A DNA stretch of 44,741 nucleotides from a virus: positions 1 to 44,741 of the IMG/VR virus record IMGVR_UViG_3300037116_000300. One strand, written 5' to 3'. How positions within the stretch are numbered: position 1 is the first letter of the stretch; every line of letters begins with the position of its first letter. The notes beneath the pieces are model-generated. The model was given only the letters and a program-made list of their open reading frames with translations, searched no databases and had not been told where the DNA came from. Made by a program: the position numbers and the translations under genes. Of this stretch, positions 6,424 through 44,741 are shown in pieces.

Positions 6424-6962
6424 TTCTGCGCGCCGCCCTTCTTGGCCTTCTTGGTGGCTTTGGCTGCCGCGAACGCTTCCTTCTCGCGCAGAGTGGAAGC
6501 CAGGTCGACGCTGAGTGTGGGAGCCTTGGAGTTGACATCGAAGCAGCGGGCGAAGATCGCGAACAGGCGGGTCTGGACTTCTTCAGCTAGGCCGCCGATC
6601 TTGAGCCGCAGCCTGTCGCCGGCATCCTTGAGGAGCTGGTGCTTGGTGGTGCGCTTGAAGAGCAGGCGGAACAGGCCCGGCTTCTTGAGGCGGGAAAGCT
6701 CGGCGTTCAGTTCGCCCACGGCCGATTCGTTGATCTCGATGGTCGAGCCGACGGTGGAGTCGGCGATGTACATCATGCCTTCGAGGCGCGTGGTCTTCTC
6801 GGCGCGCGGGGCGATGTGGCCCTGCGCCTGGACGGCCGCGAGCAGAATGCCCTTGGCTGCGGAATGGGCCTGCTGCGCGGTCTCAAGCTTGAGCCGGCAG
6901 TTATCGAACTCAATGCAGAGATCGTCGATCTCGTCAGGACTGTAGAACTTCTTGTCGGTCAT
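6420..6962 (-). CDS. Early helical protein, possible Gam-like
   Basis: 180 residues from the ATG at 6962 (MTDKKFYSPDEIDDLC). A helical N-terminal half (FDNCRLKLETAQQAHSAAKG) precedes a strand-rich part and a helix pair (GELNAELSRLKKPGLFRLLF, then TKHQLLKDA). The order of long helix, strands and helix with a G-L-x-R turn is reminiscent of Mu Gam (host-nuclease inhibitor), which sits in the same part of the Mu early operon. The similarity is weak and judged by eye. The C-terminus is strongly basic (AKATKKAKKGG). It overlaps the preceding zinc protein by 29 nt. Confidence 0.5.
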   Translation of the reverse strand: MTDKKFYSPDEIDDLCIEFDNCRLKLETAQQAHSAAKGILLAAVQAQGHIAPRAEKTTRLEGMMYIADSTVGSTIEINESAVGELNAELSRLKKPGLFRLLFKRTTKHQLLKDAGDRLRLKIGGLAEEVQTRLFAIFARCFDVNSKAPTLSVDLASTLREKEAFAAAKATKKAKKGGAQK

Positions 6963-7436: not shown

Positions 7437-7726
7437 CAGCGTCCTCCGTGGAGGATGATCTGCTCGACGCGGCCGGAAGCAAGGGGCGCGATGATTTTGT
7501 AGAGAGTGACGGCGCTCAACAGGGCCGCGGCGACGAGCAGGAGTGGCCACAGGTAGCCGGCCCAGCGATACAGCTTGACGTAGATGTCGACGTGCGATCC
7601 GCGCACGGTGGTGGTGACGCGGCCGCGCGAGCGGTTCCAGCGCTCCACGTCGGCTTTGCTGAAGTTGGTGGCGCGGGGCTGATCGATATATTGGCGAAGC
7701 GACGGCGGTACCTGATTCGGGGTCAT
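7436..7726 (-). CDS. Early single-pass membrane protein
   Basis: 96 residues. A polar N-terminal half (about 1-50) is followed by one hydrophobic segment at about 56-78 (AGYLWPLLLVAAALLSAVTL) and a short C-terminal tail. It overlaps the MuB-like stop by 4 nt. In Mu the position just after B holds kil, a small protein that blocks host division, but no sequence link to Kil is visible here. Membrane location is inferred from hydrophobicity. Confidence 0.55.
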   Translation of the reverse strand: MTPNQVPPSLRQYIDQPRATNFSKADVERWNRSRGRVTTTVRGSHVDIYVKLYRWAGYLWPLLLVAAALLSAVTLYKIIAPLASGRVEQIILHGGR

Positions 7727-8742
7727 TGTTCCTCCTGGAGGACTTCGGCGGTTGTGGCCTCGATCCGGGCGGACTTGATTCGGTCGAGGGCGTTGGTGAG
7801 TGTGCGGACGTTGATGTAAGTGCGGTTGCCTTCGAAGGCGTCGCGGACGGTTGCGCCGGTGATGAGGGTGTCGATGAGCTTGCGAGCTTCAGTCTGCGAG
7901 CGGCGCGTGTTGAGCAGCTCGCCGATCTCGCGCTCGATGATGCCGACGGCCTCGGCGCGCTCCAGTCCAGGCAACCGGACCTTGGCGATGAGGCGGCTAT
8001 TCCACTGCTCCAACGTCGCGGAAAACTGATCGAACTTCGTTTTCAGATCATGCGATCCGGCCAGAAGCAGAGAGAAGTAAGGCGGCTGGTCGAGCAGCTC
8101 GCGCAAGGTCTCAAGACATTCGAGAGAGAGATGCTGCGCTTCGTCGACGACCAGCACCACGCGGTGATGCTGAAAATCGAAGCGGATGTTCGCGAGCATG
8201 GGATCGAGATCGTTGGAGGTGCGGCATCCACAGGCCACGGCCACGCGGCGGATGAGATCGCGCGGGCGAATGCCCTGACGGGCGTAGACGTAGAAAGCGC
8301 GGCGGCCGAGCGGCTTGGCCAGCTCCTCTTCATTGAGGCGCGCCACCTGGTGTTCGAGCACGAAGGACTTCTGGCTTCCGGGCGGCGCATAGATCATGTG
8401 GGCGACGGGCCGCGGCAGCAGCTTCTCGAAGGTCTCCTGGATGGCGCGGACGTTGGCCGTCTCGTAAAGCTCGCCCGAGATGCGCGAGGCCGAGCCCACC
8501 GGATGCAGGTCCATGAACTCCGTGGCGGCCTTGACTAATGAATGAGCCGAGCGGGAGACGTTCTGATACTGGCCGTGCATAAAGAAGCGCAGCGTGACTT
8601 CGCTGTAGCCGATGCGCCGCGCGAACTCAGGCGCGGTGAGGGCTGTGCGCGCGAGGTAATCGTCGATGCGCTTGGCGAGAGCGGCGTTGGTGTCGGCTTG
8701 TGCGGCAAGGATGCCGCGATCTTCACGGGCTGCCCAGGTCAC
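7723..8742 (-). CDS. MuB-like transposition ATPase
   Basis: 339 residues, close to the usual 300-340 of MuB-type proteins. Residues about 20-75 form an N-terminal HTH (LTAPEFARRIGYSEVTLRFF), as in MuB. The AAA+ core has a Walker A-like loop at about 119-126 (APPGSQKS) and a clear Walker B at about 195-203 (VVLVVDEAQ, D200 and E201), with a sensor-like LLLAGSHDL at about 225-233. In Mu the protein binds target DNA, activates the transposase and enforces target immunity. The P-loop departs from the G-x4-G-K-S/T pattern (Q instead of the second G). ATG overlaps the MuA stop (ATGA), so the two are translated together. Confidence 0.88.
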   Translation of the reverse strand: MTWAAREDRGILAAQADTNAALAKRIDDYLARTALTAPEFARRIGYSEVTLRFFMHGQYQNVSRSAHSLVKAATEFMDLHPVGSASRISGELYETANVRAIQETFEKLLPRPVAHMIYAPPGSQKSFVLEHQVARLNEEELAKPLGRRAFYVYARQGIRPRDLIRRVAVACGCRTSNDLDPMLANIRFDFQHHRVVLVVDEAQHLSLECLETLRELLDQPPYFSLLLAGSHDLKTKFDQFSATLEQWNSRLIAKVRLPGLERAEAVGIIEREIGELLNTRRSQTEARKLIDTLITGATVRDAFEGNRTYINVRTLTNALDRIKSARIEATTAEVLQEEQ

Positions 8743-10790
8743 TTCAATCCCTCCAGAAAGTTATTGGCGATGTCGGCCGCGGTCGATGGCGCCACGGCTT
8801 CTTTGTTGGGGCGCAGACGTTTGCGCTGGGTGATGACGGCGCTGGTATTGGTGGGGAGCTGCAGGCGGCCGTAGAGCATCTCCTCGGCCGACTTGGCGCC
8901 CATGCTGCGCGCCGCGCCCTCAATGGTGCGCAGCGTGGTCTTCGCGGCTTTCTCCAGGCCGCGGCGCGTGGCCATCGACTGCGCAATCTGCGCCTGCGTC
9001 TTGGGATCGTTAGGCGCGAAGCGGATCAGCGGCTCAGCCTCAAGCCAGGCCAGGAAGCGGCCGTCGAGTGTGAGCGCGACGGCAAACTCCGGATCGTCGG
9101 GGTTGTAGCCGACGAGCACTTCGCCATCGTTGGCCTCGTGCATCGCGGCCCAAGCCAGGCGGTCTTCAGGGCGCGGCGTGTAGCGGTGCTTGTTCAATTG
9201 CACCGCGCACTCGCGCACGCCACGGCGCGCAAACTCGGCCAGCAAGAGCGCCAGCGTTTCCGGATTGGGCACGGGCTTCTGATTGGGATTCGGGTCCGTT
9301 GCGAAGATCTCATCGGGGCTGCGGCCGTCCATGCCTTCGCCGGTCTGCGGCGTCGCGTTGTATTCGCGGATCCACGAGAGGCAGCCCAGGATGAAGCGGC
9401 TGGCTAGCGGGTGATTTGACTCTTCGACACGGCCGGCCTTGAGCAGCCGGCGGTGGCGCATCATGGCGAGTTCGGTCGCCTCGGGACGCGTGAACGGCGA
9501 GCCCGATGTGTAGGTCGAGTGCACCGCATCGAAGCGCATGTGCATGGTGCGGAAGAACCGCTCGACGTGCTTGGACTGCGGGTGGCGCGGGAGGCAATGC
9601 GTGACGGCGATGCCAAGCCGGGCGAGAAGGCCGGTGCGCTCGATGCGCTGGTACTCGTTTTCGTACCAGGCCTCGGGGGCCTTCGCGTCGTCGATGACTT
9701 CCGAGCCGTGCACCGCGCCCTTGGCGACTTTCTTGTAATCCTTGCCGTTGTCGACGTAAATGCCTTCGGGCGGTCCGACTTCGAGCATGGCGCGCAACAT
9801 GGTGGCGGCGATCGAGCGCGAGCTGCCTTCCCAGGCCCACGTCGCCCAGGCCTTGCGGCTGCGGTAATCGACGAAGGCCGACATGCGCAGGCGGCCGGGC
9901 GTGCCGAAAGGAACTCCCTCAAAATCAAGATCGTTCTGAATCTCGACGTCGTGAATCGCGTGATCGCCGACCCAGACCTGGTTGGCAAAAACGTCGACGT
10001 AGCCCCGCTTGACGTAGGGCGCCATGCGCTCGCGATAGACGCGCTGGCCATCACGGGCCAGCGTTCTCATGGCCGGCGAGATCGACTGCGAGAGAAAGAC
10101 GCGGACGGTTTCGCGGCTCGGCAGATCCGCCTTGTCCAGGCCAAGCATCGCCGTCTCATATTCGATCTGCTCGCAGACGAAGGTGACCGACATGCGCTCG
10201 ACCAGGTAGAGGTAGGCGGCGAAGATCTGCGCCTCGCGGTGGCAATTGAACCAACGGCTCTGGCCCTTGTCGGCGCGGATGCGATCGGCGAGTGCGGCAA
10301 AGCCCCCGCTGCGGTACTGCGCCAGCCAGCGCTTGATAGTGCGCGGGGACTGGCCATGCGCGGCGGCAGTGTACTCGATCATGCGTTCGAGGCTGGTGAC
10401 CGGCTTGCCGTTGACCTGGAGCGATACATAGCGCGATGGATTGTCGGGGAAGTTCAGAAGAGGTTCGAGGGCGGCGAGGCGTTTCTCTGCCTGCGCCTGA
10501 TCGGCTGGGTCCGGAAGCACGATGCGCTCCAATGAGGGAGGAAGGCTGGCGAAGAGCGGGAGCGTCTGGGCCGGAGCGACGAGCGCTAATTGGTGCGGAG
10601 CGGGCTTCGCGGGGAGAGCCGATTCGAGGTATTCGACCGAGCCCGACGCCGTTGCCCGCGAGATCAGCTCAGCGCGGCGGCGGAAGAAGGTTGCGCGCGA
10701 CCAGCCTGTGCGCTCCATAACCTCTTCCGGCGTGAGGATGACCCACAGACCGGCCGTGGGGATAAGCGAGAGCTGCGGGGCTGGCGTCAT
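8739..10790 (-). CDS. MuA-like DDE transposase
   Basis: 683 residues, similar to MuA (663). An N-terminal HTH (about 18-45, LTPEEVMERTGWSRATFFRR) and a second HTH near 135-160 (SPRTIKRWLAQYRSGG) precede the RNase H-like core. The catalytic triad is visible as D276 (VWVGDH), D347 (GIYVDNGKDY) and E410 (HVERFFRTMH), spaced 71 and 63 residues apart, compatible with MuA-type spacing. After the core comes a Mu-type C-terminal barrel region, with LNKHRYTPRPEDR. It cuts and joins phage ends during replicative transposition, with the MuB-like partner. The start overlaps the preceding small gene by 4 nt. Confidence 0.92.
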   Translation of the reverse strand: MTPAPQLSLIPTAGLWVILTPEEVMERTGWSRATFFRRRAELISRATASGSVEYLESALPAKPAPHQLALVAPAQTLPLFASLPPSLERIVLPDPADQAQAEKRLAALEPLLNFPDNPSRYVSLQVNGKPVTSLERMIEYTAAAHGQSPRTIKRWLAQYRSGGFAALADRIRADKGQSRWFNCHREAQIFAAYLYLVERMSVTFVCEQIEYETAMLGLDKADLPSRETVRVFLSQSISPAMRTLARDGQRVYRERMAPYVKRGYVDVFANQVWVGDHAIHDVEIQNDLDFEGVPFGTPGRLRMSAFVDYRSRKAWATWAWEGSSRSIAATMLRAMLEVGPPEGIYVDNGKDYKKVAKGAVHGSEVIDDAKAPEAWYENEYQRIERTGLLARLGIAVTHCLPRHPQSKHVERFFRTMHMRFDAVHSTYTSGSPFTRPEATELAMMRHRRLLKAGRVEESNHPLASRFILGCLSWIREYNATPQTGEGMDGRSPDEIFATDPNPNQKPVPNPETLALLLAEFARRGVRECAVQLNKHRYTPRPEDRLAWAAMHEANDGEVLVGYNPDDPEFAVALTLDGRFLAWLEAEPLIRFAPNDPKTQAQIAQSMATRRGLEKAAKTTLRTIEGAARSMGAKSAEEMLYGRLQLPTNTSAVITQRKRLRPNKEAVAPSTAADIANNFLEGLK

Positions 10791-13909: not shown

Positions 13910-14557
13910 ATGGCGCAGACCTTCCAACTCGCGAGCAAGCTGTTACTTTTAGCGGTCGCACTCGTGTGCCTGTTCCCGCCTCTTCATGCTCGCGCGGAAC
14001 AGGACCTTGTGCTTTTGGGAACCGGGAACCTCACGCGCTCCACGATCGGCACGTTTAAGAACGGCTCGAAGATCAGGCAGTACTCCGCTGACAAAGCCGG
14101 CGTGGGCATTGGCTACGAGTGTTTTTGTTTTGAGGATAAGAACGTAGCCATCGAATTCTTCTTCTCGTATGTGCCGACGAACTCGAAGCTGTCCTCGGTC
14201 GATGGCAAGACGGTCTTAGACATCTGGCCGATCAATCGGTATGAAGAAGGGATCATCCTGAAGTACCGGTGGCGGCGTGGCAAGGTGGTCTCTCCTTATT
14301 TTGGAGGCGGCATCCTGACCACGGTTCTCTATGGCGGCAATGCCTCAGATCACCAACCAGGTGGATGGTCTGGCTTCGATTGGCAGAATGGCTACGAGCT
14401 CGATTCTGGAATTGACTTCCGGCTGCAGAAGAATCTTGCTCTTCGTGTAGGCGGACTGACCGATGTCATCCAGGCCAGCACGTTCTCAGACCAGACCTAC
14501 GCGTCCTCCAACACGCTCATGGTTGAGCCACAGGTCGGGTTTGTTTGGAAATTTTAA
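13910..14557 (+). CDS. Secreted outer-membrane beta-barrel protein
   Basis: 215 residues. An N-terminal signal peptide (LLLLAVALVCLFPPLHARA) is followed by alternating beta-strand patterns (IEFFFSYVPTN, ILKYRWRRGKVVSPYFGGGI, LALRVGGLTDVIQAS) and a C-terminal strand ending in Phe (GFVWKF), the signature of outer-membrane insertion. Length and strand pattern suit an 8-stranded barrel of the PagL/OmpW/OmpA-like class. In a prophage such a protein could alter the lysogen surface or phage adsorption (inference). No catalytic residues are clear. Confidence 0.65.
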   Translation: MAQTFQLASKLLLLAVALVCLFPPLHARAEQDLVLLGTGNLTRSTIGTFKNGSKIRQYSADKAGVGIGYECFCFEDKNVAIEFFFSYVPTNSKLSSVDGKTVLDIWPINRYEEGIILKYRWRRGKVVSPYFGGGILTTVLYGGNASDHQPGGWSGFDWQNGYELDSGIDFRLQKNLALRVGGLTDVIQASTFSDQTYASSNTLMVEPQVGFVWKF

Positions 14558-15040: not shown

Positions 15041-15376
15041 ATGACGCCGAGCGGGAATTCTCTGACGTGTCCGCATTGCGGATGCCGTCTGCAACTGGAG
15101 ACGAAGATCCTGGAATTCCCGGCGGCTGAACCGCTCGCCTTGCAGGCGCGCTTCGGTTTGAGTCCAAGCAACACGCGGCTCGGGCATCTCATCGCGAAAG
15201 GGCTCGGATACGGGGAGATCGCCGACCGGATGTGCACCACGGAAGGAGCCGTCAAGCAGATGGCCTTTCGTATGTTTCACAAGATTGGATGCGCAGGTCG
15301 AGAAGATTTTATGAAGGTTTTGTACGCTGGCGAGGCGAGGTGGGCAAATGAGGCGGCCAATGCCAAGAAAGTCTGA
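15041..15376 (+). CDS. Zinc-ribbon plus LuxR/GerE-type HTH regulator
   Basis: 111 residues from the ATG at 15041, selected for the GGAGGAGCG just upstream; an ATG at 15011 is a weaker alternative. The N-terminus has a half zinc ribbon (LTCPHCGCRLQ). Residues about 50-105 fit the GerE/LuxR DNA-binding domain: LSPSNTRLGHLIAKGLGYGE, then IADRMCTTEGAVKQMAFRMF and HKIGCAGREDF. It could activate late genes in the way Mor/C do in Mu. No other activator is seen in the region. That role is inference from position. It overlaps the next gene. Confidence 0.65.
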   Translation: MTPSGNSLTCPHCGCRLQLETKILEFPAAEPLALQARFGLSPSNTRLGHLIAKGLGYGEIADRMCTTEGAVKQMAFRMFHKIGCAGREDFMKVLYAGEARWANEAANAKKV

Positions 15377-15980
15377 CGGCTTCACCATCTTCGCGGTCGC
15401 GCTGAACTCTTTTTCGCTCGGCTTCGGTCTCTGTGTTGTCTGTGCTCTGATGCGCAGCTGCGGCGACGATGGCGGGTATGGACGTCGCGTCTTCGCGCAG
15501 ACCGCGCCTCAGGCGCAGTACGGACTCAGCGGCGGCATGGCGCTTCCGGACGCGTCGATCACGCCGGGCGTCGTCGATCCGGAAGCCGTCGCCGATATCA
15601 CGGGCAAGTCACATAAGTCGGCCGGCATCGAGCGGAACATCTGCGCCGACGATTTCCGCACCGGTCCGATCCGCGCAGGGATACACAACTTCGCCAAGTT
15701 GAAAAGAGAAGCCTGCGCCGAATACAGCGTGGCGAAGTGCGATGCGAGCGTCGAGGGCGACCATCTGATCTCGATCGAGATCGGCGGCTGCCCCGATTGC
15801 CTGACGAACCTCTGGCCGCAGCCGATGGACGAGGCGCGGATCAAGGATCACCAGGTCGAGGATGTTTTGCCGAAGCTGATCTGCGCCGGAAAGATGACCC
15901 TGGGCGCGGCGCAAAAATGCATGGCGACCGACTGGGTGGCCTGCGCGGACCGGCTGAAGGTCCTGGAGGGGCAAAAGTGA
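15348..15980 (+). CDS. HNH-like protein with N-terminal membrane segment
   Basis: 210 residues. The N-terminal hydrophobic stretch (FTIFAVALNSFSLGFGLCVV) should be a signal or membrane anchor. The C-terminal half has EGDHLISIEIGGCPDC, TNLWPQP and a late CAGKMTLGAAQKCM region. The spacing of D-H, then N-L-W-P, matches a treble-clef HNH family. A DNA- or RNA-cutting role is possible, but the outward location would be unusual; alternatively it is a non-catalytic relative. Its 3' end (DRLKVLEGQK stop) recurs almost intact at 17885-17921, marking a recombination junction. Confidence 0.55.
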   Translation: MRRPMPRKSDGFTIFAVALNSFSLGFGLCVVCALMRSCGDDGGYGRRVFAQTAPQAQYGLSGGMALPDASITPGVVDPEAVADITGKSHKSAGIERNICADDFRTGPIRAGIHNFAKLKREACAEYSVAKCDASVEGDHLISIEIGGCPDCLTNLWPQPMDEARIKDHQVEDVLPKLICAGKMTLGAAQKCMATDWVACADRLKVLEGQK

Positions 15981-15984
15981 CCTC
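15948..15984 (+). repeat. 37-nt direct repeat, copy 1
   Basis: Runs from GACCGGCTGAAGGTCCTGG through the stop codon of the HNH-like gene to CCTC. The second copy at 17885-17921 differs at two positions. Both encode DRLK(V/G)LEGQK followed by TGA in the same relative frame. Confidence 0.8.
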
Positions 15985-16048
15985 TCCTCATCTCCATCAT
16001 CATCGCGAGCATCCTCGACATTACCAAGTCCACGATAGGAGCCACCTT

Positions 16049-16456
16049 ATGAAACGGATCATCCTCTTCGCACTCCTCGCAATACTGGCAATTCCAGCCA
16101 CGGCACAGACGGCACTCCATGTAGTCACGAGCTGGACGCCTGGAGTCTGGCCGGCCGGCACGCCGAATTGCAGCGCCACAGTGACGACCAACTGCGCATC
16201 AGGGCAGACGCTGACCATCACGATGCCGACCGGGGCTCCCATTGTCATCCCGCTGGCGCCCGCGATAGCGACCTATGACTACAGCAACGGCGACCCACTG
16301 GCTTACGGGGTTTACACGGTCAGCGTAGTCACCAACGGCATCGGCGCGACGGCTACAACCTTACTTGCTTCCACGCCAGCCACAGGCACGACGGTTTATG
16401 CATTGACTCTCAATGTGGCCCCAGCCCCAAGCGGTGTGCAAGCGCAGATTCATTGA
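16049..16456 (+). CDS. Small secreted protein, paralogue 2
   Basis: 135 residues from the ATG at 16049 with AGGAG 7 nt upstream. A clear signal peptide (MKRIILFALLAILAIPATAQ) is followed by a beta-rich domain with NCSATVTTNCASGQTLTIT, nearly the same core as in the gene at 14569, then ATYDYSNGDPLAYGVYTVSV. Probably a secreted Ig/fibronectin-like fold. It lies inside the segment bounded by the 37-nt repeats, so it may have come as part of a mobile cargo cassette. Confidence 0.6.
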   Translation: MKRIILFALLAILAIPATAQTALHVVTSWTPGVWPAGTPNCSATVTTNCASGQTLTITMPTGAPIVIPLAPAIATYDYSNGDPLAYGVYTVSVVTNGIGATATTLLASTPATGTTVYALTLNVAPAPSGVQAQIH

Positions 16457-16464
16457 GGCCAGCT

Positions 16465-18090
16465 GTGCAAATCCGCCACGCCATTCCGATTCTCCTTGCG
16501 TCGCTATTTGCGATGATGTCGCCCGCTTGGGCTACGCAGTATCATCTCTCGCCCTTGGGCAGCGACTCAAATAACGGTCTGACGACGGGCGCGCCTTGGC
16601 TCTCCCCGAACCATGCTCTGAACTGCGGCGATGTCATTACCGCGGCGGCTGGCGCCTATTCTGCCAGCAACTTCACTTGGACTTTCGGTCCGGTGACTTG
16701 TCCTGCTGGGAACAACGTCGCATGGCTTGCGTGTGCGACGCCGTTTGCGTGCTCCATTACCACGTCAACCACCTACGATATGGATTTGACTAAAGGGTAT
16801 TGGGGGGTGACGGGCTGGGTCTTGAGTGTGACTGGTGGGACTGCCGCCTGCGTGGAAATCAATCCAAATTCAGGCGGAGAAATACACCATATCATCTTCG
16901 CCAACAATATCCTGAACGGCTGCATGGCGGATGGGATCGCCACCAACAACGGTACGTCCACTATGGGCGTAGACTACCTTGCTTACGTGGGCAACATCGC
17001 TTACGCCGCGGGCGGATCGTCCAGCACTTGCAGCGCCGGATTAAGTTTCGAGTCTCCGATAGCCTCCGACACGCTGCCGGGGACGCACATGTATATGGGT
17101 GGGAACTTTGCTTGGGGCAATACCAGCAATTGCGGCGATGGCGAAGGAATCATCTTCGATACTTTCGACGGTCGGGAATCCAGCCCGCCAACATCTGTGC
17201 CCTACGCGCAGCAGGCAGTCGCAGAAAATAATCTGCTTATTTACAACGCCACTGGCTTGCAGGTAGACATGAACAATGGTGGCAGCGGTTCGCATGCGCC
17301 CATTGTCTTCACGCACAACACCGTGGCTTACAACGGCGTAGGGCCGTCAACTTTCACCGTCTGCGGCGAAGTTGTCCTTAGCAGCACTGTCACGACGACG
17401 GCCACGGCAAACCTCGTGTACGCGCCTTCGCGGTATTGCTACGGCGGGAGTTCCATCACGCGATACGGCGATTTAGTGGACATCTCGTCAACCTCGACAA
17501 ATAGCGTCTCTGGGGAATTTGCCTATTCTGCTTACGGAAACGGAATAGGTACCTATGCTAGCCCTGGTTTTACGCCGGGAGCAGGCAATATCACGGGAAC
17601 TGACCCAGTCTTTGCGAATCCCGTGGAACCGGGAGCGCCGAACTGCACAGGGTATGCGACGACCACCGCTTGCATGGCGACCGTGATCGCAAACTTCACG
17701 CCGACTGCGGCGGGAGCATCGGCCTACGGCTATCAACTGCCATCGAGCACGCCGGTTTACGGTCCACTGTTTCCGCAATGGCTGTGCAATGTGAACCTGC
17801 CCAGTGGATTGGTGACAATGGGCTGCGGCGGAGCGCCCGCCCCGAAACAGTTGAGCATCATGGTGGCAGTGGTGGCGGCGCGAAGACCGTCTGAAGGGCC
17901 TGGAGGGGCAAAAGTGACCTCCGAAAACTTTGATTTGGGGCGATCGGACGGGCCGGGGAGGATGGTTTCCCCGCTGGCGGTTCGCGGGACGCGTCCCACG
18001 GGGTCAGAAATGCCGGGAAATTTAGTTCTGGCGTCCGGTCTTACCGGGTTGAAACCGGGTTTTGCCGGTCTGGAGGGGTTGGATGGGTAG
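16465..18090 (+). CDS. Secreted right-handed beta-helix protein
   Basis: 541 residues from the GTG at 16465 with GAGG 6 nt upstream; a TTG at 16453 is the alternative. A signal peptide (RHAIPILLASLFAMMSPAWA) precedes YHLSPLGSDSNNGLTTGAPW, the typical opening of pectate-lyase-like parallel beta-helix proteins. Repeats with N-x-(I/L) coils follow (HHIIFANNILNGC, AENNLLIYNATGL). Such folds bind or cut polysaccharides. The last 70 residues (from about 475, SIMVAVVAARRP) are low-complexity and overlap the second 37-nt repeat, so the native C-terminus may have been lost. In another frame the sequence ends HHGGSGGGAKTV at a stop at 17892-17894. Confidence 0.6.
   Translation: MQIRHAIPILLASLFAMMSPAWATQYHLSPLGSDSNNGLTTGAPWLSPNHALNCGDVITAAAGAYSASNFTWTFGPVTCPAGNNVAWLACATPFACSITTSTTYDMDLTKGYWGVTGWVLSVTGGTAACVEINPNSGGEIHHIIFANNILNGCMADGIATNNGTSTMGVDYLAYVGNIAYAAGGSSSTCSAGLSFESPIASDTLPGTHMYMGGNFAWGNTSNCGDGEGIIFDTFDGRESSPPTSVPYAQQAVAENNLLIYNATGLQVDMNNGGSGSHAPIVFTHNTVAYNGVGPSTFTVCGEVVLSSTVTTTATANLVYAPSRYCYGGSSITRYGDLVDISSTSTNSVSGEFAYSAYGNGIGTYASPGFTPGAGNITGTDPVFANPVEPGAPNCTGYATTTACMATVIANFTPTAAGASAYGYQLPSSTPVYGPLFPQWLCNVNLPSGLVTMGCGGAPAPKQLSIMVAVVAARRPSEGPGGAKVTSENFDLGRSDGPGRMVSPLAVRGTRPTGSEMPGNLVLASGLTGLKPGFAGLEGLDG
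17885..17921 (+). repeat. 37-nt direct repeat, copy 2
   Basis: GACCGTCTGAAGGGCCTGG through AAAGTGACCTC. It encodes the last residues of the HNH-like protein in frame, although no HNH gene precedes it. It therefore looks like a leftover 3' end, placed after the beta-helix gene. Confidence 0.8.
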
Positions 18091-18165
18091 TTTTGGACGG
18101 TTTTGGGGGTCCAGATGACCGGTTTGGGGCTCAGCTCGGGGTCGGTCCCTTCGGGTGAGGTCGCC
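17922..18165. other. G-rich region after the cargo cassette
   Basis: About 240 nt whose only open frame (to 18090) is a continuation of the beta-helix gene without protein character. It has imperfect short repeats of CCGGGTTT/CCGGTCT type. A 15-nt segment (18146-18160) is identical to the hairpin core before the endolysin. No separate gene is supported. Confidence 0.4.
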
Positions 18166-18624
18166 ATGGGTTTCCGGGCCGGCTGGCTGCGGCATTTCAA
18201 GGTGGCTCTCAGCTCGGCCGGAGGGGCCGCGGTGATCTTCGGTTTGTTTGAGCTGCTGCAGAAGCAACCCGTCCAGGGATTCAAGCTGCTCGGAGAATGG
18301 GGGCCCTGGCCGGTCCTCGCCATGGTTGGGCTGGTCCTGGTCGCGCCTTTCCTGGTTGGGCTGCAGGACACCGTGCGCACGGCCTTCGGCGCGATCGTGT
18401 CGAATTTCCAGCTTCAGACGCAGGCCAGCACCAAGACCGCCGACGCATTGACAAGGCTGGCAGACCAGGGCGGCAGGCAGGCGGAGGAGATAAGGCGCCT
18501 GGCCATCTTCAATGCGCAGGAGTTCCCCGGCATTTATTCGCGGTTCGACAAACAGGACGAAGTGCTGCAGGACTTGAGCAGCCTGGTCAAAGTGCTGGTG
18601 ACCCGAGGACGTGATGATCACTGA
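18166..18624 (+). CDS. Membrane protein with two segments and a coiled tail
   Basis: 152 residues from the ATG at 18166, with GAGG 5 nt upstream; an ATG at 18115 is a longer alternative. Hydrophobic segments lie at about 14-34 (VALSSAGGAAVIFGLFELL) and about 50-70 (WPVLAMVGLVLVAPFLVGLQ). A C-terminal helical tail follows (STKTADALTRLADQGGRQ) with charged periodicity. A holin or other lysis/envelope protein is plausible, as it stands just before the packaging genes where some Mu-like phages keep lysis functions. No family recognised. Confidence 0.55.
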   Translation: MGFRAGWLRHFKVALSSAGGAAVIFGLFELLQKQPVQGFKLLGEWGPWPVLAMVGLVLVAPFLVGLQDTVRTAFGAIVSNFQLQTQASTKTADALTRLADQGGRQAEEIRRLAIFNAQEFPGIYSRFDKQDEVLQDLSSLVKVLVTRGRDDH

Positions 18625-18934
18625 ACAGGAACTACGGCAGATAAAGCGGCGCCGCGGCAACATGCTGAAGTTCATTCGGCAAGGGCACGAGAGGCAGCTC
18701 GACCGGATGGACGACCTGATGATGCAGGCCATGATGCAGGATGTCGGCTCGAATATGAGCCAGCGTCAGGTGATGACCATGCTGCAGGATCTGCAGGTGC
18801 TCGGTTACGTCACGTTCAAACAAGCGTTCAGCGACGAGCTTGAGCGGTACACCGCCGACGAGATCATGCTCACATCGCCAGGGCTCGTCATGGTATCGCG
18901 CCGCAAAGACAACGACGAAGTGATGTTCAGCTGA
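18614..18934 (+). CDS. Small protein before the packaging genes
   Basis: 106 residues; ATG at 18614 (GTG at 18611 alternative) overlaps the preceding gene's end. It starts with a long charged helix (ITEQELRQIKRRRGNMLKF), has a winged-helix-like middle (MSQRQVMTMLQDLQVLGYVT, then FKQAFSDELERYTADEI) and ends with a strand (LVMVSRRKDNDEV). In Mu-like phages this position is taken by gp25/gp26-type proteins of unknown role. DNA binding or terminase assistance is possible. Confidence 0.55.
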   Translation: MITEQELRQIKRRRGNMLKFIRQGHERQLDRMDDLMMQAMMQDVGSNMSQRQVMTMLQDLQVLGYVTFKQAFSDELERYTADEIMLTSPGLVMVSRRKDNDEVMFS

Positions 18935-18940
18935 GGCGCG

Positions 18941-19657
18941 ATGACTAAGCCAAGACCGAGAACCGGCGAAGAGCGCAAGACGCATCAGCCGCTCAAGATC
19001 GATCTGCTGCCGCAAACCGCGAGGAATGCGATCGAGCAGCTCTATGACCGCGGCCGCACCTGGACGGAGATCGCCGAGCAATCCGCGCTGCCTTATAGCG
19101 GGAAATGGGAGTCGGAGGGCGGCGGCTTCGTCGATTGGGAGAAGCTTGAGCTGAAGGTGCTGGAGCAGTTCCCCGAGATGCGCCTGGCGAAGACGAGCCT
19201 TCTGCGCTGGTTCGATATCCGCGTTGCTCAGGCGCGCAAACAAGTGCTTCGCGAGAGTGCCCAGGCGCGCGCATTCGCCGCGTCCTTCGCCGGGAATAAT
19301 CTCTTCGACGCGAATTCCGCCGTGGTGAACGCACTGCGGGACCAGGTCTTCACGCTGATCCAGTCCGCGGGCAAGGGTGACAAGGCGGCCTTCGCAAAGG
19401 GCCTGAAGGATTTGACCCTGGCCATGACCCGCATGCAGCGGGTGGAGCTGCAGGCCAAGCGGGTCGCAGTGGATGAGCGCCGGGTAACGCAACTTGAGAA
19501 GGACGCCGAGCTGAGACATAAACAGTTCACCAAGGAGATGGATGACGCTGAAAAGAAAATCACGCGAGGCGAAGCCCTTACCGCAGACGACATCAATCGC
19601 ATCCGCGAGCGCGTCTTCGGGATCGGACCCGCTCCCGTCGCCGCCGACGCGCATTGA
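18941..19657 (+). CDS. DUF3486/Mu gp27-like protein (probable small terminase)
   Basis: 238 residues. The N-terminal half (KIDLLPQTARNAIEQLYDRG, TWTEIAEQSALPYSGKW) is an HTH with a W-x-E-I pattern typical of the gp27 family. The second half is a long coiled coil (RMQRVELQAKRVAVDERRV). It precedes the large terminase, as gp27 precedes gp28 in Mu, and probably recognises phage DNA for packaging. It overlaps the terminase by 116 nt. Confidence 0.75.
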   Translation: MTKPRPRTGEERKTHQPLKIDLLPQTARNAIEQLYDRGRTWTEIAEQSALPYSGKWESEGGGFVDWEKLELKVLEQFPEMRLAKTSLLRWFDIRVAQARKQVLRESAQARAFAASFAGNNLFDANSAVVNALRDQVFTLIQSAGKGDKAAFAKGLKDLTLAMTRMQRVELQAKRVAVDERRVTQLEKDAELRHKQFTKEMDDAEKKITRGEALTADDINRIRERVFGIGPAPVAADAH

Positions 19658-21143
19658 GGTCATCCCCCACGACTTCAAGCTGCCTCCGGTCATCCAGCTG
19701 CGGCCATATCAGCAGCGCTGGATCGACGATAGGTCGCGCTTCAAGCTGTCGGTGAAATCCGCCCGAATCGGCTATTCCTACGCGACGGGCGTGGATCACA
19801 TCTTCCGCCGGCTGGAAAACGGCGGCTCGACAACGACAGTGCTTTCGCCTTCTCAGGCCCAGTCGACGGAGTTTGTCGACGTCTGCAAGAAAAACATCCA
19901 GGCGATCGGCGCCGTAGCCCAGGTCTACGACGAAGCCTGGAAGGATGACATCAGCGCGACGGACTTCCTGGTACAGCGGATCCAGTTCGCGAATGGCTCG
20001 CGCATCATGGCGCTGGCCGCGAATCCTCGCACCGCCCGCGGATATCCGGGAGACGCGGTGCTTGACGAGTATGCACACCAGATGGACAGTTACGCGATCT
20101 GGGCAGCGATCTTCCGCCAGGTCGCGTTGGGCAACCGCCTGGATGTCCTGTCTACGCCGAATGGGGAACAGGGCAAATTCTTCGACTTGGCTAAAGACCT
20201 CGGGCTTTCCGATGGCTTCGCGCCGTCACCCAACCCGACGCGCAAAGGCCCGTGGAGCGGGCACTGGATCGACGTGAACATGGCCGTGGCCGACGGCTGC
20301 CCCATCAACATCGAGGAGATGCGCGAGGGCATCAAGGATAACGATACCTGGTCGCAGGAATTTCTCTGTGTATTCCTCAAGGCCACCGGCGCGTGGCTGC
20401 CGATCGAGTTGATCCAGCAGTGCGAGGACTCGGGGGCGACGGTTGACTGGCCTGCCGGCTATGCCGCGCGCGGCGCTCTTTATTCCGGCATCGACGTGGC
20501 GCGCGATCACGATCAAACCGTTCTTTGGATGGTCGAGCGGCTGGGCGACATCCGCATGACGCGGCTGGTGCTGCCGCTCCATGCTTTCCCATTCCCGAAA
20601 CAATACGACGCGCTCGATCCATGGGTGCGCATGACCACCAGGACCGCGATCGATTCGACCGGCATGGGCATCGCGCTCTATGACCTGCTGAACCAAACCA
20701 ACGGCGGCCGGGTGATGGGCGTGAGCTTCGGGGGAACCAACGACAACGGCGTGCGCATGAAGGTGGACCTGGCCGTGCGCTTCAAGAGGATCTTGGAGAA
20801 CGCGCACTTTCGGCTGCCGTACGATCCGCAGATCCGCATCGAGCTGCAATCGGTCAAGCGCGAGGCGACTTCGACCGGCGTCAGGTTTGATGCTCCGCGT
20901 ATTGAGCTTGAATCGGCAGTCGCGGGCGGCGCGAAGCGGAAGATCTACGCGCACGCTGACAGGTTCTGGGCCGCATCTCTGGCTGAGTTCGCTTGTGATA
21001 ACGGCCTCGAAGCGTCGATGGGATCGAGCAATGCCCAGGTGGGCGGCCGCGAGCCGGACGCGGGCCGCGGTGAGATATTGGCCGGCGTGAGCCGGGGAGG
21101 CGGTGACTTCGTGCGCCGCGACAGGAGATCGAGATGGGCTTGA
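19542..21143 (+). CDS. Large terminase, Mu gp28-like
   Basis: 533 residues. ATG at 19542 is preceded by AAGGAG, so the 116-nt overlap with the gp27-like gene seems real. The ATPase part has an atypical P-loop (about 70-82, SVKSARIGYSYAT), common in gp28 relatives that read K-S-R-Q-I-G, and a Walker B at 171-179 (DAVLDEYAH, D175/E176). The RNase H-like nuclease part shows D318 (SGIDVARDHDQT) and D371 (AIDSTGMG), with a later D409 candidate. It cuts and pumps DNA into the prohead; in Mu-type phages packaging starts at the phage end and takes host DNA. The last 40 residues are Gly/Arg-rich and not conserved-looking. Confidence 0.85.
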   Translation: MTLKRKSREAKPLPQTTSIASASASSGSDPLPSPPTRIEVIPHDFKLPPVIQLRPYQQRWIDDRSRFKLSVKSARIGYSYATGVDHIFRRLENGGSTTTVLSPSQAQSTEFVDVCKKNIQAIGAVAQVYDEAWKDDISATDFLVQRIQFANGSRIMALAANPRTARGYPGDAVLDEYAHQMDSYAIWAAIFRQVALGNRLDVLSTPNGEQGKFFDLAKDLGLSDGFAPSPNPTRKGPWSGHWIDVNMAVADGCPINIEEMREGIKDNDTWSQEFLCVFLKATGAWLPIELIQQCEDSGATVDWPAGYAARGALYSGIDVARDHDQTVLWMVERLGDIRMTRLVLPLHAFPFPKQYDALDPWVRMTTRTAIDSTGMGIALYDLLNQTNGGRVMGVSFGGTNDNGVRMKVDLAVRFKRILENAHFRLPYDPQIRIELQSVKREATSTGVRFDAPRIELESAVAGGAKRKIYAHADRFWAASLAEFACDNGLEASMGSSNAQVGGREPDAGRGEILAGVSRGGGDFVRRDRRSRWA

Positions 21144-39877: not shown

Positions 39878-40474
39878 ATGATCGTCGACCTGTCAACCGT
39901 GATCGTGCAAGGCGTCTATTCGGCGATCCCTGCTCCGAGCATCGCGGGGCGCTTGTACTTCGCCACCGACACAAAGAAGGTCTGGTACGACACGGGAACG
40001 GCGTGGGTCGACGTGACGCCGGCCGGCAGTGGCGGCGGTGGCGGAGGCGGCGGCGGTGGTGGTGGTGGAACGCCAACGAATGTTCCATTCACAGCTTCAG
40101 CCGCCGGCAATTTCACCCAGGCTCACGGCCTGGGCGCGGCTCCGGTTGCAGTGCTGATCGTGATGACCTCCGGAGCTGCGGTGTGGCTGCAGACGCCGAC
40201 CGGTTTCGATGGAACCAATCTGTATCTCACCGCGTCGGACGTGGCCACGGGCATCGCGATCTGTTTCATGACGCCCGTGACGGTCGCGCTCACTCCGAGC
40301 GCAGGCGGCAATTTCACCCAGGCACATGGGCTCGGCCGCATTCCCAACGCCGCCGCGATCGCGATGACCTCCGATGGTGCGATCTGGCTGCAAACGCCGG
40401 CCTCCTATGACGCGACCAACCTATATCTGACGGCTTCCGCAGGCGGAATTACCGCGAATGCAATTTGTTTCTGA
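39878..40474 (+). CDS. Short tail fibre protein with two repeats
   Basis: 198 residues, starting 8 nt after the tail-tip gene. N-terminal APSIAGRLYFATDTKKVWYD is a common fibre attachment segment. It is followed by a 13-glycine linker and two tandem copies of a 60-residue unit: (A/G)GNFTQAHGLG with MTSGAAVWLQTP or MTSDGAIWLQTP, ending NLYLTAS and AICF. Probably a trimeric fibre. The linker is coded by GGN triplets and could change length by slippage in steps of one glycine. Confidence 0.65.
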   Translation: MIVDLSTVIVQGVYSAIPAPSIAGRLYFATDTKKVWYDTGTAWVDVTPAGSGGGGGGGGGGGGGTPTNVPFTASAAGNFTQAHGLGAAPVAVLIVMTSGAAVWLQTPTGFDGTNLYLTASDVATGIAICFMTPVTVALTPSAGGNFTQAHGLGRIPNAAAIAMTSDGAIWLQTPASYDATNLYLTASAGGITANAICF

Positions 40475-40511
40475 GGAGATCGGGTATCACGCCCGATCTG
40501 AGGAGATGATG

Positions 40512-43500
40512 ATGAAAAATGCGATCCGTATTGTTGCCGCGATTCTGCTGGCGATCCCCCTGGCCGCGCAGCAGCCGCAGACCAACGCTCCGCTCTATCG
40601 CGTCAACGCGAAATACGCCAACGGCGTCGCGCCTGGTTACTGGCCTACGGCTGGATCCGGATTGACGCTGAATCTCTCGGCCGGCACGGCGAACTGCTCG
40701 GGCTCCATTGTGACCTATGCCGGGGGCACGCTCACCATGGCCGCGTCGACGACGAACTATGTATATCTCAATTCATCGTGCGCACCGGCGGTGAAGAACG
40801 GAGGCTTCGGTGCGAGCGATATCCCGGTGGCCACCGTGAACACCGGCAGCTCGGCGATCTCCTCGATCACGGACGATCGGACCATCTTTCAGACCCCCGG
40901 CAGCGGCGTCGGCGGCGGTGGCACGGGCCAGAATGGAGTCATCCTTACGGCCAGCGGCGCCGCGGTCTGCGGCCAGTTTCTTCGCGAGGACGCAACCGGC
41001 GCGACCACCATCACGCTGCCCGGAACAATCGTCACGGGATGCGGCATGGTGGTCGAGCGCGGCGTCGCGGCCGGTGTGGTGACCATCAATCCAAACGGGA
41101 ACTCCTATGATGGCGTCACGACGCAGCTTCCGCAGGGCGAGGCTATCTATATATATACGGATGGGACTGGCTATCACTCCAACGCACCGATGGTGGCTGG
41201 CAGCGGCTGCACCATAACGCCGTCGCTCACGGGTAATTCGTGGACCTGCAGCGGCGGCGGCTTCACTGCTGGGGGCGATTTGTCGGGAACGAGCAGCTCG
41301 CAGCAGGTCGGTGGCATCCTCGGCCATGCGCTGCCATCGTTGAGTTCCGGCTATCCGCACTGGAACGGATCGGCATGGGTATTCGACACGCCGAGCGGCG
41401 GCAGTGGAATGCCAACAGCGACCGCGCCTGGCCAGATCCCGAGCTCGACCGCCGCGGGCACGACCTACGCTCCGCAGGCCCAGATCTTCTTTAACCAGAC
41501 CGGCGATACCATCTCGATCATTGAAGGAGAATGCTCCAGCCCTTGCACCTATATAGTGACTGTGCCGCAGACCATCACGCTCTCGGCGAGCCACGCGATG
41601 AATTCCAATGTGCATCTCCAGTTCGATGCCGGCGGCAAGTGGACGGTGAACGGGGCCTACACACTATCAAATGTCCAGATCGAGAACAGCGCCTTGACGC
41701 AGCACCTCGCGGGCAGCTCGACGATCACCTTCGGCCCCTCTGTGTCGCTGGCGCCGGTCGAATGGTTTGGCGCGGTGGGATACCCGTCCATGTCGGCTAC
41801 AGCTTCGGGAACGGATAGCACAACCCCGATTCAGCTCGATATCAACGCGCTTTCGGTCTATGGCGGTCAGTTCCTGTTGCAAGCTCTTGGGTATAGAACA
41901 ACCTCGGCGCTCTCGATCGGCGCATCCGGCGTGGGTGGAAAGGGGATGAGCTATGGGTTCCAGCAGCAGACTGGTTTCACCTTTGTGATGAACCCGTCGT
42001 ACATTCTCTCGACCAGCGCCAGCGCTGACATTCTGGATGTGGATGGCAGCTCGGCGCCGGGGAGTTTTATTCTTTTCAATAAATTTGAAGATTTCAGCGT
42101 CCAGAGGTCCATCGCCCCGACCGGTACTCCAGCCGGTCTCTTGCTTCGGCATTTGGCGGGGTTCACGGTTTCACGCGTCTCCTCGGGCGACAGTATCTAT
42201 GATTTTTACCTCGATTATCCGCAGGGATACGGAACCGGCAGCATCAACTATTCGACCGCGCTCAACGGCCAGGCTGGGTTCACTTACACCGCGACAACCT
42301 ACGGCTACTACATGAGCGGCCATCTCTTTTCCCTGCAAATGGCCTATGATATGGCGACAACCCTCAACACGACCGGCACGCGCTACGGATTTTTCCTCGC
42401 CAGCGGGTCGGCCATCACCGATTTGATGGCTGACTGGCTCGAAACCTATCAGCAGACCATCGGGTTCGTCTCGCAGGCCACGCTCCAGGACGTGCACGTC
42501 AACAACATGGTGAACGACTCAGACTATACGTGCATGTCGATTACCAGCGGCTCGGTCGGCCCCGGCAGCGGATCCTTCGACAGCGGATGGTGCTACGGCC
42601 AGACGGCGGGCGCGGTGATCACCAATATGTCAGGCGTGAGCATCTCGCGCAAGCAGTTCTATAACCAGGGCATCGCAACGACCGGCTCGAACAACCTGAA
42701 CCTCTCGAACGATACGATCTTTCATCTGGCCACGAATCAGACCGCCATTGCCCTCGGAACGACGACGGACAGTGTGGTTTCAGGCAATACGATCACCGGC
42801 AATGGGGGCACACTGGTCGCGCTGACCGGATCGACCTACAACGCGCTTTCGGGAAATAACCTCAACGGCACCGCGACGACGGGCCTTTCGCTTGATTCGT
42901 CCAGCAATCACAACACGGCGACTGTGACAAATGTGATCGATCCAGCGAGCATCACGACTCCAGTTTCCGATTCAGGAACCGGGAATAATATCAGCGGCAC
43001 TTTCGCCGCGGCGGGCGATCTGTCGGGCTCGGGATCTTCACAGGAAGTGATCGGCTTGTTGAGCCATGCGCTGCCCTCCCTGACGTCCGGCTATCTGCAT
43101 TGGAATGGCTCGGCCTATGTGTTTGACACGCCGGGCGGTTCTTCGCCGCTCACCACCAAGGGCGATCTCTTTGGGTATTCCACCACAGGTGCGCGGATCC
43201 CGGTAGGAATCGATGGCCAGGTCCTCACCGCGCGTTCTAGCAACGCTGCGGGCGTTGATTATGAGAACCCGAGCGGCAGCTATCCAACCCCGGAGACGCA
43301 TGTGGCCAGCAGCTCTGCGGAACTCGATTTCACAACCTGCATCTCGTCGTCTTATCGGAATTACGTGATCACCTTCTCTGACCTCGTTCCCGCATCCTCC
43401 GCCAACCTGTTGTTGCAGTTTTCCTCGGACGGCGGGTCGACTTACGATGCGACGTCCGGACACTATATCTGGACGCGGACCTACGCCGGCCTCAACACAG

Positions 43501-43793
43501 GCGGAAACTCCACCTCTTCTAATAACTCAGATATCGGAGTGAATATAGGCAGCGGCGTCACTGGGGATTCGACTTACTCCAACAGCGGGACGGTCTATCT
43601 CTATAACCCCTCGGCAACGCGGTCCAAGAACATCATCGCCAACACGGTAGTGGATGGAGGAAGCAGCACGATGTACTGGATTGGAATTGGGGGCCTCTAT
43701 ACCCAAACCACAGCCCTCAACGCCTTTCGCATCATCATGGCCAGTGGCAATATTACTTCAGGCGAGGTGTCATGCCAGCCGCTCCCGCAATAA
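40512..43793 (+). CDS. Large fibre/adhesin with signal-like N-terminus and beta-helix
   Basis: 1093 residues from the ATG at 40512; two ATGs just upstream (40506, 40509) are alternatives after GAGGAG. The N-terminus is signal-peptide-like (MKNAIRIVAAILLAIPLAAQ). A beta-helix middle (ITNMSGVSISRKQFYNQGIA, TTTDSVVSGNTITGNGGTLV) is bracketed by two similar units (GDLSGTSSSQQVGGILGHAL and GDLSGSGSSQEVIGLLSHAL, each followed by an HWNGSA motif). The C-terminal domain (LDFTTCISSSYRNYVITFSD, LLLQFSSDGGSTYDAT) is typical of tail fibres. It is likely the receptor-binding or depolymerase fibre; the signal-like start is unusual for a tail protein. Confidence 0.6.
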   Translation: MKNAIRIVAAILLAIPLAAQQPQTNAPLYRVNAKYANGVAPGYWPTAGSGLTLNLSAGTANCSGSIVTYAGGTLTMAASTTNYVYLNSSCAPAVKNGGFGASDIPVATVNTGSSAISSITDDRTIFQTPGSGVGGGGTGQNGVILTASGAAVCGQFLREDATGATTITLPGTIVTGCGMVVERGVAAGVVTINPNGNSYDGVTTQLPQGEAIYIYTDGTGYHSNAPMVAGSGCTITPSLTGNSWTCSGGGFTAGGDLSGTSSSQQVGGILGHALPSLSSGYPHWNGSAWVFDTPSGGSGMPTATAPGQIPSSTAAGTTYAPQAQIFFNQTGDTISIIEGECSSPCTYIVTVPQTITLSASHAMNSNVHLQFDAGGKWTVNGAYTLSNVQIENSALTQHLAGSSTITFGPSVSLAPVEWFGAVGYPSMSATASGTDSTTPIQLDINALSVYGGQFLLQALGYRTTSALSIGASGVGGKGMSYGFQQQTGFTFVMNPSYILSTSASADILDVDGSSAPGSFILFNKFEDFSVQRSIAPTGTPAGLLLRHLAGFTVSRVSSGDSIYDFYLDYPQGYGTGSINYSTALNGQAGFTYTATTYGYYMSGHLFSLQMAYDMATTLNTTGTRYGFFLASGSAITDLMADWLETYQQTIGFVSQATLQDVHVNNMVNDSDYTCMSITSGSVGPGSGSFDSGWCYGQTAGAVITNMSGVSISRKQFYNQGIATTGSNNLNLSNDTIFHLATNQTAIALGTTTDSVVSGNTITGNGGTLVALTGSTYNALSGNNLNGTATTGLSLDSSSNHNTATVTNVIDPASITTPVSDSGTGNNISGTFAAAGDLSGSGSSQEVIGLLSHALPSLTSGYLHWNGSAYVFDTPGGSSPLTTKGDLFGYSTTGARIPVGIDGQVLTARSSNAAGVDYENPSGSYPTPETHVASSSAELDFTTCISSSYRNYVITFSDLVPASSANLLLQFSSDGGSTYDATSGHYIWTRTYAGLNTGGNSTSSNNSDIGVNIGSGVTGDSTYSNSGTVYLYNPSATRSKNIIANTVVDGGSSTMYWIGIGGLYTQTTALNAFRIIMASGNITSGEVSCQPLPQ

Positions 43794-43955: not shown

Positions 43956-44741
43956 TTGCTCCCTGCAGCCCAACGCGACCGGCTCGATGTCGTACTCGTC
44001 TCACCGCGCAATCCCCTCAATATAGGAGCGGCGGCGCGCGCCATGGCCAACTTCGGCTTTTCCCGGCTCGCCGTCGTCGCTCCCTACGCACCTCATTGGC
44101 GCGAGGCGCGGTCCGCGATCGGTGCCCCGGATCTACTCCAAGTCGCCAAAGAGACGGAGTCTCTCGCGGAAGCGATTGAAGAGTGCGCCCTCGTGCTCGG
44201 CACTGGCACCCTCACCCATCGTAAGCCGGAGCAGCAGGTCATCTCTCTTCCGTCATTGGCCCCGCTCATCCGCCGGCAACTGATCGAGGGAGGCCGTGTC
44301 GCCGTGGTCTTCGGCCCGGAAAAGCACGGCCTTACCCGCGAAGACCTGTCCTATTGCCATGTGCTGGTTGAGATTCCAACTGACGCGCGCCAACCTTCGA
44401 TGAATCTCGGTCAGGCCGTAGCTGTCTGCCTCTATGAGCTGGCAACCCGCGTGTTTTCCAATACCCAAACCCCGTCTGAAGAAATCCCGAATCAAGCCGA
44501 AAATGTGCCGCCCGCCGCCACCTCCGGCAACCTCGACACGCTGGCGAAACTCATTGAACAGGCCATGGCAGCGTCAGACTACTCCCCGCGCGCCATGCAA
44601 CCAGCCAACCGCCACGATCTCCGCTTGCTCCTGCGCCGTCTCCATCTGAACCTCGCGGATACACGGCGTGCCCTCGGCCTTTTTCGCCGCATCCTTTGGC
44701 GCATTGAACGGGAACAGCAGCAGGACGGTTTACCCCGATAA
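43956..44741 (+). CDS. TrmJ/SpoU-family RNA methyltransferase (host)
   Basis: 261 residues from a TTG start at 43956; no ATG or GTG lies before the conserved region. SpoU/TrmH marks: motif 1 (VSPRNPLNIGAAARAMANFG), motif 2 (GRVAVVFGPEKHGLT) and motif 3 (VEIPTDARQPSMNLGQAVAV), forming the trefoil knot that binds S-adenosylmethionine. A C-terminal helical extension (HDLRLLLRRLHLNLADTRRA) is usual in TrmJ. It probably 2'-O-methylates tRNA position 32. It is a chromosomal housekeeping gene, so the prophage lies just upstream of it, close to its promoter. The window ends exactly at its stop. Confidence 0.85.
   Translation: MLPAAQRDRLDVVLVSPRNPLNIGAAARAMANFGFSRLAVVAPYAPHWREARSAIGAPDLLQVAKETESLAEAIEECALVLGTGTLTHRKPEQQVISLPSLAPLIRRQLIEGGRVAVVFGPEKHGLTREDLSYCHVLVEIPTDARQPSMNLGQAVAVCLYELATRVFSNTQTPSEEIPNQAENVPPAATSGNLDTLAKLIEQAMAASDYSPRAMQPANRHDLRLLLRRLHLNLADTRRALGLFRRILWRIEREQQQDGLPR

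Follow-up and report, generated by a model that had tools for sequence, protein, structure and literature searches.

The ways in which phages acquire additional genes are still poorly understood, and the locus analysed here raises that question in a concrete form: did two genes for exported proteins enter between neighbouring genes of a phage, and by what route would their entry have left the 3' end of the adjacent gene in two copies? We addressed this in a single virus record, whose whole stretch of 44,741 nt we call the window, by comparison with related viral contigs. Its value is that of one concrete case, in which the scar is readable, a relative has the site unoccupied and the beta-helix gene has lost its stop at the joint (Table 1).

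Table 1. Coordinates of the window and of the features at and around the cassette site
Feature	Position	Strand	Description
Whole record	1-44,741	one strand shown	virus record IMGVR_UViG_3300037116_000300; Mu-like phage from soil
HNH-like gene	15348-15980	+	210 aa; hydrophobic N-terminal stretch; 3' end is repeat copy 1
Direct repeat, copy 1	15943-15984	+	last 38 nt of the HNH-like ORF including the stop, plus 4 nt
Left joint and cassette leader	15985-16048	+	AGGAG ribosome-binding-like motif ahead of ATG 16049
Small protein	16049-16456	+	135 aa; signal-peptide-like start (by eye)
Beta-helix ORF	16453-18090	+	545 aa from TTG; homologous part ends at ~17826-17879, remainder is an out-of-frame tail through copy 2
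Direct repeat, copy 2	17880-17921	+	orphan HNH 3' end; stop at 17915-17917
Conserved region	17932-18108	+	directly behind the HNH-like gene in L003 (empty site); blastn
Palindrome GGGACGCGTCCC	17986-17997		perfect, 12 nt; inside the conserved leader before the packaging genes
g18103	18103-18624	+	conserved gene downstream of the slot
Next gene	18611-18934		
Small terminase, Gp27-like	18941-19657		
Large terminase	19542-21143		

The cassette site lies between lysis and packaging genes of a Mu-like phage

The record is a Mu-like transposable phage, as seen from its genes for a MuA-type transposase (8739-10787, minus strand; PHROG match to phrog_310, transposase, E 1.9e-67) and a MuB-type protein (7723-8739, minus strand; PHROG match to phrog_296, DNA transposition protein, E 1.2e-20), together with a small terminase of the Mu Gp27 type (PF11985, E 2.7e-09) and the head genes downstream of it. 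Other genes matched in the record encode a repressor, a phage lysozyme, an outer-membrane-barrel-like protein, a large terminase, portal, capsid and tail proteins, and the cassette site has packaging genes on one side and lysis genes on the other. Just upstream of the site lies an outer-membrane beta-barrel gene (13910-14557; PF13505, E 1.9e-06, just below the cut-off), and the beta-barrel, HNH-like, small and beta-helix proteins form a run of likely exported products. Towards the right end of the record, a large late protein (40458-43793) with beta-helix matches to PF13229 and PF05048 is likely tail-associated, and the terminal stretch, which matches a SpoU-type rRNA methylase (43956-44741; PF00588, E 7.5e-26), may be host DNA past the phage end. 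Searches for RNA families and tRNAs found none in the window.

The gene on the left of the cassette, which we call HNH-like, encodes a protein that has no sequence match in Pfam, PHROG or PDB and whose relatives are 61-75% identical over aligned rows. Their alignment revealed conserved DH, N and KD..E columns, and Foldseek linked the core of the AlphaFold model weakly to HNH nucleases (no match better than E 0.9), observations that support the putative HNH label and do not prove it. Eight cysteines are common to eight aligned HNH-like proteins. Because most relatives share the hydrophobic N-terminal stretch of the window's protein, in many cases followed by a cysteine, the protein could be exported, perhaps as a nuclease. 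A search of the HNH alignment against bacterial genomes gave no match, and the phage GenBank collection, searched as protein and as DNA, held none to the HNH-like protein, the beta-helix protein or the 9 kb of DNA around the site. Supported forks in the HNH tree were too few to place the window's protein, and a literature search on exported HNH nucleases and superinfection exclusion listed nothing relevant.

Two copies of the HNH gene's 3' end flank the cassette

The two copies of the direct repeat are identical at 38 of 42 positions, with all four mismatches in the left 19 nt and the rightmost 23 nt identical. An earlier note on this DNA had reported a 37-nt repeat (15948-15984 and 17885-17921) with two mismatches, taken as the last 37 nt of the HNH-like gene including its stop. 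Those coordinates and mismatches hold, and the repeat extends 5 nt leftward to 42 nt, but the 37-nt form comprises only the last 33 nt of the gene, whose stop at 15980 leaves the repeat's final 4 nt behind it. The same note had read copy 2 as an orphan 3' end, which is correct in the HNH frame, where it is an open frame to a stop; copy 2 is not, however, intergenic, and the beta-helix ORF crosses it in another frame to its own stop at 18090.

The repeat is far above chance: the best ungapped score of the HNH side against the downstream side is 29, whereas 100 dinucleotide shuffles gave no score above 15, and a second scoring scheme gave 31, with no score above 14 among 200 simple shuffles. Its 22-nt core occurs at two places only in the 44,741-base record (up to 3 mismatches allowed), and an exact search for the identical 23-nt block found no match in other viral contigs. 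A search for paired inverted repeats at the ends of the insert found none.

The slot varies among related phages and is empty in some

For comparison we used nine contigs in which an HNH-like gene lies upstream of g18103 (L003, L004, L005, L006, L007, L063, L064, L080 and L096, with identical HNH proteins in L005 and L006). Two groups were excluded, namely more distant HNH-like loci with a terminase, in which g18103 was undetected (L079 and L086), and L100-L112, which had no detected counterpart of any packaging gene of the window. The two-gene cassette is present in none of the nine contigs with the same neighbours; four have no extra gene in the slot (L003, L005, L006 and L007), and the other five hold other small ORFs. 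Together with the differing GC3 described below, these counts support the earlier proposal of a moron-like cassette inserted beside the HNH gene, a proposal that would have failed had the HNH gene never been found alone or had all relatives carried both repeat copies. The HNH-like gene stands without the cassette in every one of the nine contigs, and a duplicated HNH 3' end was found in the slot of none of the eight relatives tested (scores 7-9, within shuffles).

The occupants of the slot differ between contigs. One similar cargo ORF of ~95 codons is seen in L004 (6586-6872) and L096 (4540-4818), another ORF in L080, and a common ORF, membrane-protein-like by eye, in L063 and L064, the latter having one more. 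The distance from the HNH stop to g18103, measured in the window and eight of the relatives, is 2123 nt in the window, compared with 228 in L003, 447 in L080, 474 in both L004 and L096, 527 in L063 and 871 in L064; for L005 and L007 it is 258 when counted from the match end, as the HNH ORF runs on there. Lysozyme-to-g18103 distances vary too (4.7 kb in the window and 1.7 to 3.7 kb in the others, in 27 rows of which several are duplicates of one contig), so the stretch is variable in general. Nearest relatives also differ by neighbouring gene (HNH, L064 at 76%; small terminase, L005 at 75%; large terminase, L009 at 85%), a patchy kinship that fits what frequent recombination here would produce.

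A look for relatives in which the HNH gene is followed directly by the sequence behind the second copy, as the earlier note had suggested, revealed such an empty site. In L003 the HNH stop lies at 6555, and the stretch immediately following it matches the window's sequence beyond copy 2 (window 17932-18108 against L003 6601-6777; 68.7% over 182 columns, E 1.6e-12, blastn). The palindrome GGGACGCGTCCC within this stretch also occurs at the equivalent place in L003 (6655) and in L004 (6948, behind the extra ORF) and nowhere else in the window or the other loci searched, and it is a possible operator.

The cassette genes and the lost stop of the beta-helix gene

The two cassette genes have a GC3 of 0.68 and 0.65, compared with 0.805 for the HNH-like gene and 0.71-0.81 for 13 core/late genes. 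Low values (0.63-0.68) are also seen in four ORFs that lie upstream of the HNH-like gene, and, as a point against an insertion, codon-usage correlation with late genes is low also for short core genes (0.61 and 0.67). A search by sigma-70 consensus only found no promoter-like site on the + strand of the cassette, and its one terminator-like site lies within the beta-helix gene, with totals not above those of shuffles. The cassette holds only its two ORFs, both for likely exported proteins, and no integrase, recombinase or transposase was matched in it with Pfam and PHROG. For the small protein, Pfam gave a sub-threshold SCPU match (E 0.012) and nothing else; no relative was found in viral contigs, and none at E <0.5 among all loci searched.

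The larger protein has no sequence match in Pfam, PHROG or PDB. Its structural model is weak (mean pLDDT 50.7), and Foldseek matched that model best to right-handed beta-helix enzymes, PL6 lyases and pectate lyase 9A among them (lowest E 0.01, none reaching E 0.001), from which a right-handed beta-helix fold is predicted. Judging by the make of the two proteins, the cargo would most likely act at the lysogen's cell surface or on surface sugars. Homologues of the beta-helix protein were found in viral contigs (L088-L090 and L113-L116) and in acidobacterial genome assemblies (L117-L120), where they sit in other settings, several of them adjoining genes that by eye look like those for terminase, portal or tail proteins, and such relatives occur only in contigs of a gene order unlike the window's. 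Beside portal-like or terminase-like genes, L116 (4181-4567) and L090 (4327-5063) hold what look like remnant or frame-shifted beta-helix genes, which suggests that this gene family is often gained and lost.

Comparison with these homologues bears directly on the right joint. The homologues end 4-21 residues past a conserved cysteine (seven in one comparison and further ones in a second, L120 aside), whereas the window's ORF continues for 87 residues, and copy 2 of the repeat starts ~18 codons past that cysteine. With homologues ending soon after the cysteine and the window's ORF running on out of the HNH frame, it follows from this comparison that the right joint removed the natural stop of the beta-helix gene. 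That the tail of the ORF might itself encode a protein was considered and rejected, as its tblastn match in L003 (46%, E 1e-7) looks like conservation of DNA outside any gene: its frame with respect to the HNH stop is a different one, and inspection by eye showed no matching ORF in L003.

Origin of the scar

We consider it probable that the locus arose by a moron-type insertion of cargo into a variable slot between lysis and packaging genes, leaving a recombination scar. The evidence for insertion consists of the absence of the cassette in relatives, its differing composition, the stop lost at the joint and the duplicated HNH 3' end. A gene pair for exported proteins, one small and one with a predicted right-handed beta-helix, would have entered the gap between the HNH-like gene and the conserved leader upstream of the packaging genes, and at the right joint the final codons of the beta-helix gene, without the stop, would have become joined to a duplicate HNH 3' end. 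The outcome would be an insert flanked by two near-identical 42-nt HNH 3' ends, with the HNH-like gene itself intact. Sequence comparison shows that the cassette was inserted and that the stop was lost, and we infer the route, which would most likely have been recombination with a related phage, the copies representing two alleles of the HNH 3' end, as the patchy kinship of the neighbouring genes would fit, or alternatively the capture of foreign DNA at a break; either route would need only short homology or none.

Several observations count against this reading. In likeness to the nearest HNH end, that of L004, copy 1 scores 15.5 and copy 2 scores 16.0, which neither tells the copies apart as alleles nor decides which of them is older; these scores do not bear out the idea that copy 2 resembles the L004 allele. 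Left of copy 2, beyond the 42 nt, homology to the window's own HNH gene scored 11.5 (shuffled 95th percentile 11.0, maximum 13.5) and thus gave no clear trace. The scar was found in one genome only, and nothing shows it to be typical.

Capture at a break is a somewhat unlikely but serious contender for the route. Fill-in of a staggered break at the HNH 3' end, with joining to a foreign fragment, would first have produced an exact 42-nt duplication, the copies diverging by drift afterwards; this would explain the duplication without requiring homology in the donor and fits the position of copy 2 in an unconstrained tail; the confinement of all four mismatches to the left 19 of 42 nt would, however, be rare under random drift (~0.035 by a hand count of combinations).

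Deletion is an improbable source of the second copy. Here an ancestor with the order HNH gene, small gene, beta-helix gene and second full HNH gene would have lost that second HNH gene except for its final 38 nt, and both the open HNH frame retained in copy 2 and its four mismatches to copy 1 over 42 positions, as between separate alleles, would agree with such a history. Yet among the nine related contigs there is no locus with a second HNH-like gene, the flank left of copy 2 holds no clear HNH trace, and a prior insertion of the cassette would still be required.

The identical block sits at the HNH 3' end and keeps the gene intact, as is the case with elements that target gene ends, and mismatches occur only in the left 19 nt, which would fit a mobile element with the HNH 3' end as its attachment site and the 23-nt block as the crossover core. 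Such site-specific integration is nevertheless very improbable, because the cassette has no integrase or recombinase and other cargo sits in the slot without the repeat (0 of 8 relatives); the 23-nt block is also absent, as an exact match, from other viral contigs. We give as little credence to the HNH 3' end being a reusable docking site, where cargo would bring its own copy, the gene would be rebuilt at each insertion, the slot would be refillable and the HNH-like nuclease would possibly make the break. A transposon with target-site duplication does not fit, the insert having neither a transposase match nor terminal inverted repeats. Least likely is chance or an assembly artefact, to which a single metagenome-derived contig is exposed, but against which stand a repeat score far beyond the shuffles, copies that differ at 4 positions and a right flank that matches L003, unlike a simple misjoin of identical repeats.

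Comparison with known systems

The favoured moron-type insertion resembles phage morons, as described in PMC4378225, in adding coding DNA between genes that are adjacent in relatives (here L003, L005, L006 and L007), in its differing composition (GC3 of 0.68/0.65 vs 0.71-0.81) and, by analogy, in a cargo that would likely be useful to the lysogen. Morons are usually single genes, whereas the cassette has two; neither a promoter nor a terminator belonging to it was seen (sigma-70 consensus search), and it differs by its readable flanking duplication.

A closer setting is offered by Pseudomonas Mu-like phages, in which variable genes lie at fixed places within a conserved gene order (PMC4378225). 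In that paper these regions of genomic plasticity are described as having no recognisable common flanking sequence and no clue to a common recombinase target, and the mechanism of acquisition is called mysterious. The window shares with them a Mu-like phage and variable genes at a fixed place, but differs in the 42-nt flanking repeat, seen for one insertion, where those regions have no common flank, and in cargo size, which is mainly 34-100 codons there as against >450 codons for the window's beta-helix gene.

The larger cassette protein is likened to right-handed beta-helix polysaccharide lyases and tailspikes (PL6, pectate lyase 9A) through its predicted fold; the protein has no Pfam, PHROG or PDB sequence match. 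Set against these systems, the locus represents an ordinary kind of phage cargo gain and not a novel type of system, and its scar is unusually easy to read.
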